Shown: one piece after another, positions 8,891 through 51,720 of the stretch
Position numbering within the stretch: the first letter of the stretch is position 1
Layout: each line of letters starts with the position of its first letter
Assembly: GCA_947623585.1 (NCBI GenBank)
Contig: CANQHA010000002.1
Location: 169,566-233,565 of the forward strand
Direction of reading: 5' to 3'
DNA length: 64,000 nucleotides
Source: an uncultured Clostridia bacterium
Lineage (GTDB): Bacteria > Bacillota > Clostridia > Oscillospirales > Ruminococcaceae
Translations under genes and position numbers: made by a program
The notes under the pieces: generated by a model
What the model was told of the DNA's origin: nothing
The model's database searches: none
What the model saw: only the letters and a program-made list of their open reading frames with translations

Positions 8891-9120
8891 AAAAAGGTAT
8901 TCGCAAAATCCCGCCTCGGGGCGGAATTTTAGCGAATGCTATCGCTCATCACCCCACCCCCGCCGCACTTTCTACGGATAGGGACAAATGAAGAAGCCCC
9001 CGCCCCTCGAGGGGCGGGGGCTCTCATACTTAGCCTTTCCGCAGGCAACATAGCGGGGGTGGGGTGATAGACGATATCATTCTTCTTACCCGCGTGAGCG
9101 GGGAAGAAGAATACCTTTTA
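8891..9120. repeat. Palindromic multi-hairpin intergenic element, copy A
   Basis: AAAAAGGTATTC...GAATACCTTTT ends; arm hairpin ATTCGCAAAATCCCGCC/GGCGGAATTTTAGCGAAT; CATCACCCCACCCCCGC pairs with GCGGGGGTGGGGTGAT; central GCCCCCGCCCCTCGAGGGGCGGGGGC; second arm hairpin TTCTTACCCGC/GCGGGGAAGAA. Confidence 0.9.
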
Positions 9121-14393: not shown

Positions 14394-14438
14394 TATTTAG
14401 AACAGTATAGCACATATTGAGAAAAAATGCAAGATGGG

Positions 14439-14520
14439 TGATGTGACCTAAACGGTCACATCAAGAAGATAGAAATTAGAGGTTAGAGGTTAGAGTATCA
14501 AGGTGTCGCCTGCGGCGAGG
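14439..14520. repeat. Second intergenic repeat module (hairpin plus GTTAGAG/GGTGTCGCC tail), copy 1
   Basis: gatgtgacctaaacggtcacatcaagaagatagaaattagaggttagaggttagagtatcaaggtgtcgcc; near-identical at 17193-17275 and reverse-complemented at about 27150-27231. Confidence 0.85.
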
Positions 14521-14586
14521 ATTCAAAATGCGGGGGATAATGAGCGGGGTAAGATGTAAGGCGAGGGGCGGGCGACGTTTGGCAGG

Positions 14587-14814
14587 AAAAAGGTATTCAA
14601 TCATTCCATCTGGCGATAGAATGATTTCATGCTATCGTCTATCACCCCACCCCCACTATGTTGCCTGCGGAGAGGATAAGTATGATAGCCCCCGCCCCTC
14701 GAGGGGCGGGGGCTTCGCATTTGTCCCTATTCGTAGAAAGTGCGGCGGGGGTGGGGTGATTTAAAATAGTATGAAATCTTTACCTCGTGAGAGGGAAAGA
14801 TTGAATACCTTTTA
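14587..14814. repeat. Palindromic multi-hairpin intergenic element, copy B
   Basis: AAAAAGGTATTCAATCATTCCATC...GATAGAATGATT arm, CACCCCACCCCCAC / GCGGGGGTGGGGTG, central GCCCCCGCCCCTCGAGGGGCGGGGGC, AAATCTTTACCTC/GAGGGAAAGATT arm, GAATACCTTTT end. Confidence 0.9.
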
Positions 14815-14870
14815 CCCGCTCGGGCGGAGCTTCCGCCAAACGCAGGTATAACGCGCCTCACCTGCAAATC

Positions 14871-15185
14871 TTACTCTTCCCCCTGCTTTTCCTCCGCCAG
14901 CTTTCTCATTCTTTCCCTCGCGGCAAGGTCCTCGGCCATGAGGTCAAAAACGGCGTCTTCCGAGAGGACGCCCCTTTTCAGACCGTGCGGAAAAAGCCCC
15001 GCGTCGTCGGCACGAAGGTCGTCGAGCCATTCTCCGCCCGAATAATATTCAAAAAGCTCCTTCATGCCGCCGAGCGCGGCCTCATATTTTTCAAGCGCGG
15101 AGCTGAGCTGTGAGACAGCCTCCGACGACTCGTCAAGAAGCCGCTCCATTTTTCTCACGCGCTCGGTCCTTGAAGATATATCCAT
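14871..15185 (-). CDS. DUF4298 domain-containing protein
   Basis: RMERLLDESSEAVSQL...YYSGGEWLDDLRADDAGLFPHGLKRGVLSEDAVFDLM pattern. Confidence 0.7.
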   Translation of the reverse strand: MDISSRTERVRKMERLLDESSEAVSQLSSALEKYEAALGGMKELFEYYSGGEWLDDLRADDAGLFPHGLKRGVLSEDAVFDLMAEDLAARERMRKLAEEKQGEE

Positions 15186-15204
15186 TTTTTCCTCCGAAAT
15201 CTTC

Positions 15205-17109
15205 TTATTTTTCTTTTCGAGCAGTTACGCCGAGCGAAAGAATCCTCGGCAAGACCGCCGATACGACTTCAACTGCCGAACCCGCGACAATTCCTATCGA
15301 ACAGCCCGAGAAAACGCAGAGAAGCGCCGCAGTCAAAAGCGCGGCCGCCCTTAAAACGGCAAGCGCCGAAAGGCTCAGCTTTTCTAATTTTTCGGCCGAG
15401 GCGGAAAGCGAAAGCGCGTGCATGACGTCTCTTAAATCGTTTCGCAAAAGCACCGCCGAGGCGCTCTTTTTTGCCGCCTCTGCTCCCGAAGCGAGCGCAA
15501 AGGAAAAATCAGCGGCTTTAAGCGCGGCGCAGTCGCCGACGCCGTCGCCTATCATTATGACCGCTCCGCTTCCGCGAAGCCCGCAGACATACTTCATGAT
15601 ATCCTCGCCCGAAAGCTCGGCTTCGCAGCCCTTTGCGCCAAGCTCCGAGGCTTCGCTTTCAAGCGCTTCGCCCATGCCGCCGGTCGCAAGGTATGACGGT
15701 ATGCCGCGCTCGGAAAGCATTTTCACCGCCGCCGAGGCGTTGGGCTTTATTCTGTCCGAAACCGCAATCAGCCCCAAGGCTTCGTCGGCGCGAAACAGCG
15801 CAAACACTGTCTTTTTGCCCTCGCCGAGCCGAGGATATTCCCCGGCGAACGGCGAAACGTCTTCATAAAGCGACGAAAGCTCGACCCTGCCGCCGTCTAC
15901 GATACCGGTCAGCTTTCCCGCAAGGCGCTCGGGCGCAATGCAGGGCGGAACGGCTATGCCTTTCAAGCGGCACTGCTCGGTCACCGCCTCAAACGGCGGC
16001 TCGTAAAACTCCGCGCAAAGCGCGGCCGCAAGGCGAATCACCGAATCCTCGTCTAAGTCTGAAAGGCTCACGACATCGCAAACGCTCAGCTTGCCGACCG
16101 TCGCCGTCCCGGTTCTGTCGATGACCGCGCAGCCGACCTTTTCAAGCCTTGAAAGCGCCGACGGGTCTTTGAGCAGAATGCCCTCGGTCTCGGCCTTTGA
16201 AGCGGCGGAGAGATCTACCCTCGCCCTTGCAAGAGAAAAGCCGCAGGGGCAGAGCAAAATGAGCGTTGCGATCGCAAAGAACGCGCCCGAATCTGCTCCC
16301 GCCAAGAAAGAGACCGCCGCCGCAATAATTATCGCGAGCGCGCAGCCTATCAGCCCGCAAGCCCTCGTAAAGCGCCTCGTGAAGCCGTTCTGAAGCGGCT
16401 TCTGCGCGGTTTTATAAGAGTATATGAGCCGGTCGAGGCGGCTTTCGCCGCCCAGTGCGCGGGCTGTCAGAAAGCCGCTGATATTTCTTGAACCCGCAAA
16501 AACATAATCGCCCTCGCTTTTGAAAGCCGGCGCCAGCTCGCCGGTCACCGCCTTTTCGTCGAGGTCGGAGCGTCCGGCAATTATCTCGGCGTCGCAGGGG
16601 ACCGCGCTGTCGGGGCGTATCGTCAGAATGTCCCCCTCTTTGACCTCAGAGGCGGGCAGCCTTTCCTCGGCACCGTCTCTGAGAACGGTCGCCTCGCAGA
16701 GCTTCATCGACTCCAAAAGCGCAAGCGCGGATTCCTTGGGCTTAGTCTTCGACGAGGCGTAATCACCAAGCAGCGAAAGCAATATCGCCGCGGAGCAGGG
16801 CGCGAACAAAAGCCGCTCGGCGCCGCGCTCGGTGAAAACTATCATGAAAATCTCATAGAGCGAAAAGCTCAGCCCGAATATCACCGCAAGAACGACGAAA
16901 AATTCTTCGTTGAGGCGCTGCGACCGAAAAACGGAAAAGCCCCGCAAAAAGACCCTTCGGCCGAAAAACGCCGACGGCAGAAACAAAACAAGCTCGATCA
17001 GCGCCGCCAAAAAGGGCGCTCCGCCCAAAATACCCGACGCCGTGAACGCGCAAAGCAGCGCAAACGACGCAAATACCGCTGATATCCCCCAAACCGACGG
17101 CCTCGGCAT
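15205..17109 (-). CDS. Divergent P-type ATPase (P1B-like) with altered catalytic motifs
   Basis: LCPCGFSLA (CPC) TM motif, DRTGT in place of DKTGT, VTGEL in place of TGES, GDGVGD in place of GDGxND; start set at ATG 17109 with a GGAG RBS. Confidence 0.85.
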   Translation of the reverse strand: MPRPSVWGISAVFASFALLCAFTASGILGGAPFLAALIELVLFLPSAFFGRRVFLRGFSVFRSQRLNEEFFVVLAVIFGLSFSLYEIFMIVFTERGAERLLFAPCSAAILLSLLGDYASSKTKPKESALALLESMKLCEATVLRDGAEERLPASEVKEGDILTIRPDSAVPCDAEIIAGRSDLDEKAVTGELAPAFKSEGDYVFAGSRNISGFLTARALGGESRLDRLIYSYKTAQKPLQNGFTRRFTRACGLIGCALAIIIAAAVSFLAGADSGAFFAIATLILLCPCGFSLARARVDLSAASKAETEGILLKDPSALSRLEKVGCAVIDRTGTATVGKLSVCDVVSLSDLDEDSVIRLAAALCAEFYEPPFEAVTEQCRLKGIAVPPCIAPERLAGKLTGIVDGGRVELSSLYEDVSPFAGEYPRLGEGKKTVFALFRADEALGLIAVSDRIKPNASAAVKMLSERGIPSYLATGGMGEALESEASELGAKGCEAELSGEDIMKYVCGLRGSGAVIMIGDGVGDCAALKAADFSFALASGAEAAKKSASAVLLRNDLRDVMHALSLSASAEKLEKLSLSALAVLRAAALLTAALLCVFSGCSIGIVAGSAVEVVSAVLPRILSLGVTARKEK

Positions 17110-17192
17110 GATGATTCTCCTTTCGCAAAACGCAGAATATGCTGTAATTGTATAAATTATAGCATATTGCGGCAAAAAACGCAAGATGGGGT

Positions 17193-17275
17193 GATGTGAC
17201 CTAAGGGTCACATCAAGAAGATAGGAATTAGAGGTTAGAGGTTAGAGTTTCAAGGTGTCGCCTGCGGAGAGGGTT
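17193..17275. repeat. Second intergenic repeat module, copy 2
   Basis: gatgtgacctaagggtcacatcaagaagataggaattagaggttagaggttagagtttcaaggtgtcgcctgcgg. Confidence 0.85.
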
Positions 17276-17339
17276 TTAAAATGTGGAGGATAATGAGAGG
17301 GGTAAGATATACGTCGAGGAGCGGGCGACGTTCGGTGGG

Positions 17340-17574
17340 AAAAAGGTATTCAATCATTCCATCTGACGATAGAATGATTTCATGCTATCGTTTATCACCC
17401 CACCCCCGCAGTACGTTTGACGAATAGGGACAAATGCGAACGCCCCCTCCCCTTAAAAGGGGAGGGGGCGGCTCAGTTGCTCAAACCCGCAGGCACAGTA
17501 GCGGGGGTGGGGTGATGAGCGATAGCATTCGCTAAAATTCCGCCCCGAGGCGGGATTTTGCGAATACCTTTTTA
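17340..17574. repeat. Palindromic multi-hairpin intergenic element, copy C
   Basis: Left arm like copy B (AATCATTCC..GAATGATT), right arm is the reverse complement of the copy A left arm (TTCGCTAAAATTCCGCCCCGAGGCGGGATTTTGCGAA); central GCCCCCTCCCCTTAAAAGGGGAGGGGGC. Confidence 0.9.
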
Positions 17575-17835
17575 CAGGTCACCTCGTCTCCCTCCAACCG
17601 CATGAACTCCCGCACTCCGCCACCTCACAATATGCCCTTCCTCTTTCCTCAAAAAATAACCCCTCTTCGTCAAAATATTCAGTTTTCGGGGTTGATTTTT
17701 GTTGACAAAAAATTATCACAAGATGTTGACATTTTTCGGAAATAGGAGTACCATATACATATGCTTTTATTTTAGGGGAATTTTCCCGAAAAGCAAAAAT
17801 GCGGATTTGATTCACGCTCCGCGCAAAAGAAAGGA

Positions 17836-20687: not shown

Positions 20688-20909
20688 AAAAAGGTATCCA
20701 TATTTTCCTCTGCCGGAAAATATGGATACTATCGTTTATCACCCCACCCCCGCCTTACTACCAGCGGAACGGTTAAATTAGTAAGGCCCCCGCCCCTCGA
20801 GGGGCGGGGGCTTCGATGTTTTTCCTGCCCGCAGGCAACACGCTGGGGGTGGGGTGACTTCCGATAGCATTCTTCTTACCCGCGTGAGCGGGGAAGATGA
20901 ATACCTTTT
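20688..20909. repeat. Palindromic multi-hairpin intergenic element, copy D
   Basis: GGTATCCATATTTTCCTCTGCCGGAAAATATGGATA arm; CACCCCACCCCCGC / GGGGGTGGGGTG; central GCCCCCGCCCCTCGAGGGGCGGGGGC; ATTCTTCTTACCCGC..GCGGGGAAGATGAAT arm. Confidence 0.9.
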
Positions 20910-26881: not shown

Positions 26882-27104
26882 AAAAGGTATCCATATTTTC
26901 CTCTGCCGGAAAATATGGATGCTATTTTAAGTCACCCCACCCCCCGCTGGACTTTCTACGGATAGGTGCAAATGAGCCGCCCCCTCCCCTTTGAGGGGAG
27001 GGGGCTCGCTAACTTAGCCGTTCCGCTGGTAGTAAGGCGGGGGTGGGGTGACTCCCGATAGCATTCATCTTCCCCTCGCGCACGGGGAAGATGAATACCT
27101 TTTA
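26882..27104. repeat. Palindromic multi-hairpin intergenic element, copy E
   Basis: GGTATCCATATTTTCCTCTGCCGGAAAATATGGATG arm; GCCCCCTCCCCTTTGAGGGGAGGGGGC centre; ATTCATCTTCCCCTCGCGCACGGGGAAGATGAAT arm; ATACCTTTT end. Confidence 0.9.
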
Positions 27105-27149: not shown

Positions 27150-27231
27150 TGTCGCCAAAGGCGACACCTTGAAACTCTGACATCTAATTTCTGATTTCTG
27201 TCTTCTTGATGTGTCCGTTTAGGACACATCA
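27150..27231. repeat. Second intergenic repeat module, copy 3 (reverse orientation)
   Basis: ggcgacaccttgaaactctgacatctaatttctgatttctgtcttcttgatgtgtccgtttaggacacatc, reverse complement of the modules at 14439 and 17193. Confidence 0.8.
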
Positions 27232-39709: not shown

Positions 39710-40020
39710 GTTCGATTCCTCCTTTGGCTGGCAATGATTTTCAGGTTAGAGGGTATTTCCTTGCTATACAATGGACATCTCCGCGCCGTTTCGGTATATG
39801 CCATCGAAAATATCCCTCTATAAGACAACGGACATTTTTGCAGCGAATAACAGGGTACATTGAAAAAAATTTACCGAAGACGAGAATACCCCTCTACTTT
39901 ACAACGGACATTTTTTTGTAGTGCTATCCTAAAATCGTACACATATGGGGTAGATTTTGTACAGAAGGTGGTATAATATAAGACATTAAAGAATCATCTT
40001 TCGCACAAGCACTCCCCAAT

Positions 40021-41255: not shown

Positions 41256-41559
41256 TTCACAATTTTCTTAGTCTAGTTTTTTTAAATTTGTGTACGATTT
41301 TTGTTGACTAGTGCACCTATAAATTGTAAAATTTTTGTGAACAGAAAATCCCCTCTCACTTTACAACGGACAATTTTCCAACAAATGAGGGGTGATGGGA
41401 AAGAATATTTTGAGAGCAACGGTATCCTCCACTTTGAAAAGCCGAGGATGCCGCTGTTGCGTGGATACGGTTTTGGGAAGAATAGCAAGCAAATCCGCTG
41501 TCCGTACACAGCGGAAAAATGACCGCCCTCCACGTTGCGGAGAACGGCCATTTTTGTCC

Positions 41560-51396: not shown

Positions 51397-51720
51397 AAAA
51401 GGTATCCATATTTTCCTCCGCCGGAAAATATGGATGCTATCGTTTAGCACCCCACCCCATTTGTTATGTACCTGAACGCTCCATGCGCACAAAAGCCCCG
51501 CAGGGGCTTTGTGCCACAGAAGCGGGTTTTGTCCAAGAGAACGAGCCGCCGATTCGGCATGGCGGCGAAGTTCGATTGGTTACAAAACCCGCTTCTGTTG
51601 CCCTCGAGGGGCGGGGGCGTTCGCTTTGCTACCTCTTAGACAAACGTGCGCCGGGGGGTGGGGTGGCTCAAAATAGTATGAAATCTTGCCCTCGGCAGGG
51701 AGCGATTGAATTCCTTATTT
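51397..51720. repeat. Palindromic multi-hairpin intergenic element, copy F (degenerate, carries internal hairpins)
   Basis: AAAAGGTATCCATATTTTCCTCCGCCGGAAAATATGGATG arm, CACCCCACCCC...GGGGGTGGGGTG; centre contains ACAGAAGCGGGTTTTGT...ACAAAACCCGCTTCTGT (51516-51598). Confidence 0.82.

Follow-up and report, generated by a model that had tools for sequence, protein, structure and literature searches.

Reassortment of hairpin cassettes in an intergenic mosaic palindromic repeat of a Clostridia genome

The stretch of 64,000 nucleotides analyzed here (the window) contains an imperfect palindrome about 220 nt long in six copies, one of which, copy C, lies at 17340-17573. From these six copies, a first-pass annotation proposed that the hairpin arms are interchangeable modules shuffled between copies, by recombination or inversion, under selection on structure. 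This raises the question of whether the modules do reassort or whether arm combinations have been fixed by descent, and, if modules are exchanged, what keeps their stems paired and how they are exchanged.

Architecture of the repeat and its window copies

Read inward, each half-element has AAAAGGTAT first and then an arm hairpin, which is followed by either ATRCTATCG or ATRCTATTT. A linker of about 5 nt leads on to CACCCCACCCCC, and between CACCCCACCCCC and one half of a central GC hairpin lies a spacer of about 34 nt. Conserved anchors (AAAAGGTAT, ATRCTAT, CACCCCACCCCC, and the central GC hairpin) set the exchangeable cassettes apart, and the two endings, CTATCG and CTATTT, define two half-classes, CG and TT. 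Copy C is present where it had been annotated and is structured far beyond chance: compared with dinucleotide shuffles, its fold scores z = -15.1 as RNA and z = -13.4 as DNA. The predicted single-strand fold has a closing stem and a junction with the two side arms, together with a long GC-rich stem and, in the middle, the central hairpin. The parts of copy C, with the basis of each call, are the following.

17340..17573, no strand: whole element, AAAAAGGTAT to ATACCTTTTT (sequence; fold z)
17340..17349, plus: closing stem, 5' strand AAAAAGGTAT, pairing with 17564-17573 (sequence, fold)
17350..17381, plus: left arm hairpin, AATCATT type (typing, fold)
17382..17390, plus: anchor ATGCTATCG, CG half-class, pairing with 17520-17528 (sequence)
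17396..17407, plus: anchor CACCCCACCCCC, pairing with 17503-17514 (sequence)
17408..17441, plus: left spacer cassette, CGTTTG outer / ACAAATG inner (typing)
17442..17469, no strand: central GC hairpin, CCCCCTCCCC / GGGGAGGGGG (sequence, fold)
17470..17502, minus: right spacer cassette, GCCT outer type, minus-strand reading (typing)
17503..17514, minus: anchor CACCCCACCCCC on the minus strand (GGGGGTGGGGTG) (sequence)
17520..17528, minus: anchor ATGCTATCG on the minus strand (sequence)
17529..17563, minus: right arm hairpin, CGCAAAA type (typing)
17564..17573, minus: closing stem, 3' strand (sequence)

The five other window copies, assigned by typing and without strand, are these.

8895..9116 (contig 178460-178681): copy A, CG+CG, CGCAAAA and TCTTCCCC arms
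14591..14810 (contig 184156-184375): copy B, CG+TT, AATCATT and AATCTTT arms
20692..20906 (contig 190257-190471): copy D, CG+CG, CCATA and TCTTCCCC arms
26885..27100 (contig 196450-196665): copy E, TT+CG, CCATA and TCTTCCCC arms
51400..51715 (contig 220965-221280): copy F, CG+TT, CCATA and AATCGCT arms, long form with an alternative centre module

The arms had been described as GGTATYC, a hairpin, and ATGCTATCG. Genome-wide this formula stands, with 102 matches of GGTATYCN{10,40}ATGCTATCG against 0 for the reversed control, although an exact ATGCTATCG follows no more than 7 of the 12 arms in the window; one arm each of copies B and F ends in ATACTATTT, which represents the second half-class and no mere noise. 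Copy C does combine the left arm of B with the inverted left arm of A. Since the similarity between B and C reaches about 200 nt beyond the element, into the left flank, the pair is a segmental duplication with differing right halves. The swap of cores between A and B is likewise genuine (inverted pair I3, 94% over 88 nt), the same core lying in opposite orientations between different flanking arms. Different right arms had also been reported for D, E, and F; this applies to F, whereas D and E carry variants of the single TCTTCCCC type, and the separate “TTCTTACCCGC type” is the TCTTCCCC type read from the opposite strand.

The window has other repeated features as well. Copy B, a P-type ATPase gene, and copy C form a 3.2-kb block (window 14435-17630) with direct repeats of about 200 nt at its two ends; four syntenic relatives (L076, L079, L080, and L081) have the flanking genes but lack the block between them. 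A second repeat family (GATGTGACC..GGTCACATCAAGAAGATAGAAATTAGAGGTTAGAG..GGTGTCGCC) adjoins several copies (window 14439-14528, 17190-17280, and 27152-27231), and a further short repeat of 35 nt occurs in three copies with a common ACAACGGACATTTTT end (window 39805-39915 and 41343-41377).

Reassortment and polarity of modules genome-wide

The window genome comprises 2,073,093 bases (99.47% complete) in 43 contigs of up to 341 kb, and its close relatives are mostly rabbit-gut Clostridia/Oscillospiraceae MAGs. The paired core pattern matched 78 times and the half-anchor pattern 229 times, the latter somewhat above the 224 half-elements parsed around copies by a fuzzy pattern (one of which, C13:30016, is clearly false and was left in the set). 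Of these halves, 186 make up 93 paired elements and 38 are single; the genome thus holds about a hundred copies or more, between genes. Arms, spacers, and centres of the extracted copies were typed separately by regular expressions (spacers were parsable in 204 of the 224 halves), the main arm families being CCATA, TCTTCCCC, CGCAAAA, CCATT, and an AAT family with sub-types. Linkage between modules was then calculated for classified rows (10 inner spacers were unclassified) and for types with at least 4 members within halves or at least 3 across halves.

Within CG halves, the arm is independent of both the outer spacer (n=111, 19/21 combinations, V = 0.00, p = 0.72) and the inner spacer (n=105, 21/24 combinations, V = 0.06, p = 0.44), and within TT halves arm and outer spacer behave similarly (n=71, 29/36 combinations, V = 0.10, p = 0.28). 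The typing itself is informative, as linkage persists between the outer and inner parts of the spacer (V = 0.69 for CG and 0.81 for TT halves). Residual links join arm and linker in CG halves, weakly (V = 0.28, p = 0.004), and inner spacer and centre (V = 0.34, p = 0.006). Across the two halves of an element, arm and arm give V = 0.18 (p = 0.13, 14/15 combinations) and the two outer spacers are weakly linked (V = 0.26, p = 0.016); typing of the outer flanks is coarse, with one cluster of 129, and provides a weak test. As many as 58 of the 62 fully typed CG+TT elements are distinct combinations.

Closely similar spacers lead to the same conclusion. CG halves whose spacers lie 2-3 edits apart share their arm type in a fraction of 0.19 (n=26), against 0.35 for all pairs, and those 0-1 edits apart in 0.17 (n=6); for TT halves the fraction at 2-3 edits is 0.18 (n=39), against 0.18 for all pairs, and the only two pairs at 0-1 edits both have a common arm. 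One 35-nt spacer recurs unchanged beside both a CCATA and a TCTTCCCC arm, and a second does so beside two AAT-family arms that differ from each other. The anchors that separate these reassorting modules measure only 9-14 nt. Larger units are shared as well: nine long elements (314-322 nt, copy F included) have at their centre a module, about 125-160 nt in length, which elsewhere forms the outer flank of other halves, 27-31 for each long element and 37 distinct ones overall, at 85-93% identity among the 14 alignments listed. Fixation of arm combinations by descent, which we looked for throughout the genome, is therefore rejected, and the interchangeability of modules emerges more strongly than six copies could have revealed. 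Reassortment itself is demonstrated by these data; the enzymology proposed below is an inference. Proximity within 20 kb does not predict shared arms (p = 0.83 for CG, p = 0.06 for TT halves), and this absence of local sharing leaves short-range conversion without positive support.

The inversion proposed between copies fared differently. CCATA, TCTTCCCC, and CGCAAAA arms are found mostly in CTATCG-ending halves and those of the AATC family chiefly in CTATTT-ending halves, half-class being associated with the arm at V = 0.87 and with the outer spacer at V = 0.61. The 93 elements divide into 76 CG+TT, 16 CG+CG, and 1 TT+TT (rare TG/AG endings counted as CG), against 45.3, 31.4, and 16.4 expected from random pairing (p = 6e-11). 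Given these ties and the excess of CG+TT elements, modules do not invert freely between halves, and the inversion claim is for the most part incorrect. Small inversions do occur: two CCATA arms carry a reverse-complemented loop.

As to selection on structure, pairing of the stems is indeed maintained. In 35 distinct 30-nt TT arms, 94.3% of cells are paired and 7 of the 12 pairs have changed on both sides, against a mean of 2.9 in shuffles, only 1 of 500 of which reached the observed 7. This strong covariation is no proof of selection, however, because template switching during replication can create compensated stems in one step (as described in PMC8794818), altering both sides at once, and would suffice; it is also described as inverting loops (PMC8604942). 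Throughout the genome, both the AATCATT/AATCTTT arms and the TCTTCCCC arms retain a C.T mismatch, located about equally deep in the stem (e.g., window 14591-14810), which is perhaps a recognition feature.

Genomic placement, genus distribution, and spacer slots

None of the 93 elements lies inside an ORF as called by a simple codon-scored ORF caller. The 88 elements with both neighbours sit between convergent (31), tandem (34), and divergent (23) genes, compared with 6, 33, and 6 among the 45 gene pairs of the window itself. Elements lie a median of 115 nt from 3' and 238 nt from 5' gene ends, and between tandem genes their polarity ignores the direction of transcription (15 versus 14). AAAAGGTAT is inverted at both ends of the element, yet in-register homology of the flanks extends outward of the closing stem and is lost by degrees (170 of 224 flanks at 20 nt, 99 at 100 nt, and 48 at 200 nt), so that AAAAGGTAT is an anchor rather than a sharp terminus. 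Exact ends could not be placed in the four syntenic relatives, whose intergenic regions are too diverged. The 30-200 nt lying outward of AAAAGGTAT consist, for most copies, of a handful of repeated modules, and no true outer ends were detected there; since these flanks are themselves repeated, a large part of the intergenic DNA has a modular look.

Among 294 genomes of relatives examined, one per species, the half-anchor pattern occurs in only four, all from one genus (31 genomes): the window genome (G000) with 229 matches, G016 with 31, G020 with 36, and G022 with 4. The frame is absent from the other 27 of the 31 congeneric genomes, and five further genomes of the 294 have a single, chance-like match. 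The three congeners with the pattern fill the same frame with other cassettes. A lone copy with an identical CCATA arm and a long centre ends a contig of G015 (L041, C65 end), a genome with no other match, and reflects either transfer or contamination. Searching with the permease protein recovered 80 loci and searching with the ATPase protein none; the first 30 of the 80 contain no CACCCCACCCC, and blastn of the six window copies with their flanks against all 80 gave one weak match, from the flank of copy E.

Between CACCCCACCCC and the central hairpin lies a slot of quantised length: 2-3, 14-16, or about 34 nt. It measures 32-37 nt in 172/172 parsed cores of the window genome, 34-35 nt in 6 cores of G022, 2-3 nt in 11/11 cores of G020, and 2-3, 14-16, or 33-35 nt in the 26 cores of G016, all counts in which overlapping loci may enter one core twice. 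An empty slot leaves a core with the block order of a G/C-rich intrastrand triplex motif. Like the motif TM_ECO/BoxC, the core places a hairpin, CCCCTCCCC-GGGGAGGGG, next to another G-rich block, the third, in which the odd position is T, and in G020 the gap of 2-3 nt is that of the motif as published in PMC4666352. Under the ITxF definition, an intrastrand triplex motif has three blocks with loops of 1-6 nt; cores of G020 and 4 of the 26 in G016 have such loops, whereas the window genome, with a gap of 32-37 nt, does not, a spacer of about 34 nt parting the third block from the hairpin on either side. The motif described in PMC4666352 has neither arms nor mosaic cassettes. That report presents G/C-rich triplex motifs as markers of unstable loci in E. 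coli; in the account of Holder et al. 2015 (PMC4666352), no stable triplex was found in vivo, even for the compact motif.

Origin of the mosaic

Mosaic palindromic repeats of comparable design are known. BIMEs (bacterial interspersed mosaic elements, based on REP/PU), in the descriptions of PMC2817692 and PMC3049150, are intergenic, high-copy mosaics of palindromic units in alternating orientation, and the present repeat is likewise an intergenic, high-copy mosaic of several module types; it differs in having no RAYT partner by Y1 profile search, in filling one frame with unrelated arm stems, and in the free assortment of its modules in linkage tests. The streptococcal BOX elements (boxA-boxB-boxC) are composites of end modules and variable inner modules with predicted folding (PMC3049150); as described there, they vary mainly in the number of boxB, whereas here fixed slots hold alternative cassettes at the ends and inside. 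REPINs place two inverted hairpins around a centre, between genes and in high copy (PMC3116915), an arrangement that the 93 paired elements and their fold share, yet here a third, central hairpin is present, hairpin sequence is not conserved, several unrelated arm stems occupying one frame, and identity with REPIN/RAYT fails for want of a Y1 transposase gene. Searches of the open-licence literature listed no previous account of these repeats or of modules shuffled in this way. Rfam has no family matching the repeats, plasmids and phages have no match to copy C by distant blastn, and viral contigs have no exact match of two arm patterns.

Two enzyme profiles, Y1_Tnp and RVT_1, were searched in the genome. 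A reverse transcriptase as the engine of exchange was discarded, no parsed copy adjoining the one on contig C7. That locus (L247, about 7.5-11.2 kb) pairs an RT ORF of 366 aa with a 138-aa ORF ending in FGFRPAFIPTP and a small helical ORF, a neighbourhood which we take to resemble a diversity-generating retroelement. At the start of contig C22 (L246), an Rfam match identified a group II intron, whose RT reading frame is interrupted.

We favour, with a probability of roughly 0.6, a genus-restricted, non-coding, intergenic repeat of the BIME/BOX kind, in which a hairpin/triplex scaffold carries cassettes that are reassorted by short-tract exchange between copies. The fixed anchors would form the nested hairpin of closing stem, two side arms, GC-rich stem, and central hairpin, related in sequence to intrastrand-triplex motifs, while the slots between them (two arms, two spacers, and the outer flank) would accept interchangeable cassettes. 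Exchange would occur over short tracts at the anchors, with left/right polarity kept, most likely through replication template switching or short-tract gene conversion; the scaffold may trigger it by stalling the replication fork, and the copies have presumably grown in number. Template switching fits in that the two inverted arm loops and the compensated stems match its signatures as described in PMC8604942 and PMC8794818.

Were the copies instead MITE- or REPIN-like units whose ends are recognized by a transposase acting in trans, their variety would stem from rounds of transposition and they would descend from master types. The inverted terminal AAAAGGTATYC, the high copy number, the intergenic placement, and the absence of the block with copies B and C from four syntenic relatives all suit such units, but we consider them unlikely: the Y1_Tnp profile (PF01797) has 0 matches in the 99.47%-complete window genome and matches 5 of 14 control genomes, flank homology has no sharp end, with 99 of 224 flanks still matched at 100 nt, and descent from masters predicts linked modules where linkage is near zero. 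The position of ATACCTTTT outward of each arm hairpin, the covarying arm stems, the surplus of convergent pairs (31 of 88 elements against 6 of 45 window gene pairs), and the closeness to 3' gene ends would all be expected of bidirectional terminators or RNA-stability elements, whose stems would be kept by selection on RNA structure and whose mosaic would be a by-product. We regard this as improbable, given that 23 of the 88 elements separate divergent genes, that polarity ignores transcription (15 versus 14), that the frame is missing from 27 of 31 congeneric genomes, and that covariation can also stem from template switching as described in PMC8794818.

An assembly artefact is conceivable for a MAG with a high-copy repeat, the genome being in 43 contigs, its kin being MAGs, and the single copy of G015 lying at a contig end. 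Usual assembly k-mers are longer than 9-14 nt, and reassortment crosses anchors of just that length; the combinations also sit inside contigs of up to 341 kb, and three other species have the same frame with other cassettes, all of which makes an artefact very improbable.

There is also a wider proposal, which we put forward tentatively and consider less likely than not: self-recombinogenic hairpin/triplex scaffolds may constitute a distinct class of intergenic element, whose fixed, quantised slots capture and exchange hairpin cassettes, making the genome a combinatorial repeat library with each species keeping its own cassettes in the same frame. Mosaic palindromic repeats have long been known, and the origin of their mosaics has rarely been measurable. 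Here, reassortment can be quantified inside a single genome, thanks to about a hundred parsed copies, a small number of discrete module types, and anchors that stay fixed; linkage drops to about zero from one side of a 9-14-nt anchor to the other. The result also carries a warning that covariation of stems among repeat copies need not imply selection on RNA, and the four congeneric species, which share one frame but differ in their cassettes, provide a test bed for whether a scaffold may drive its own recombination.
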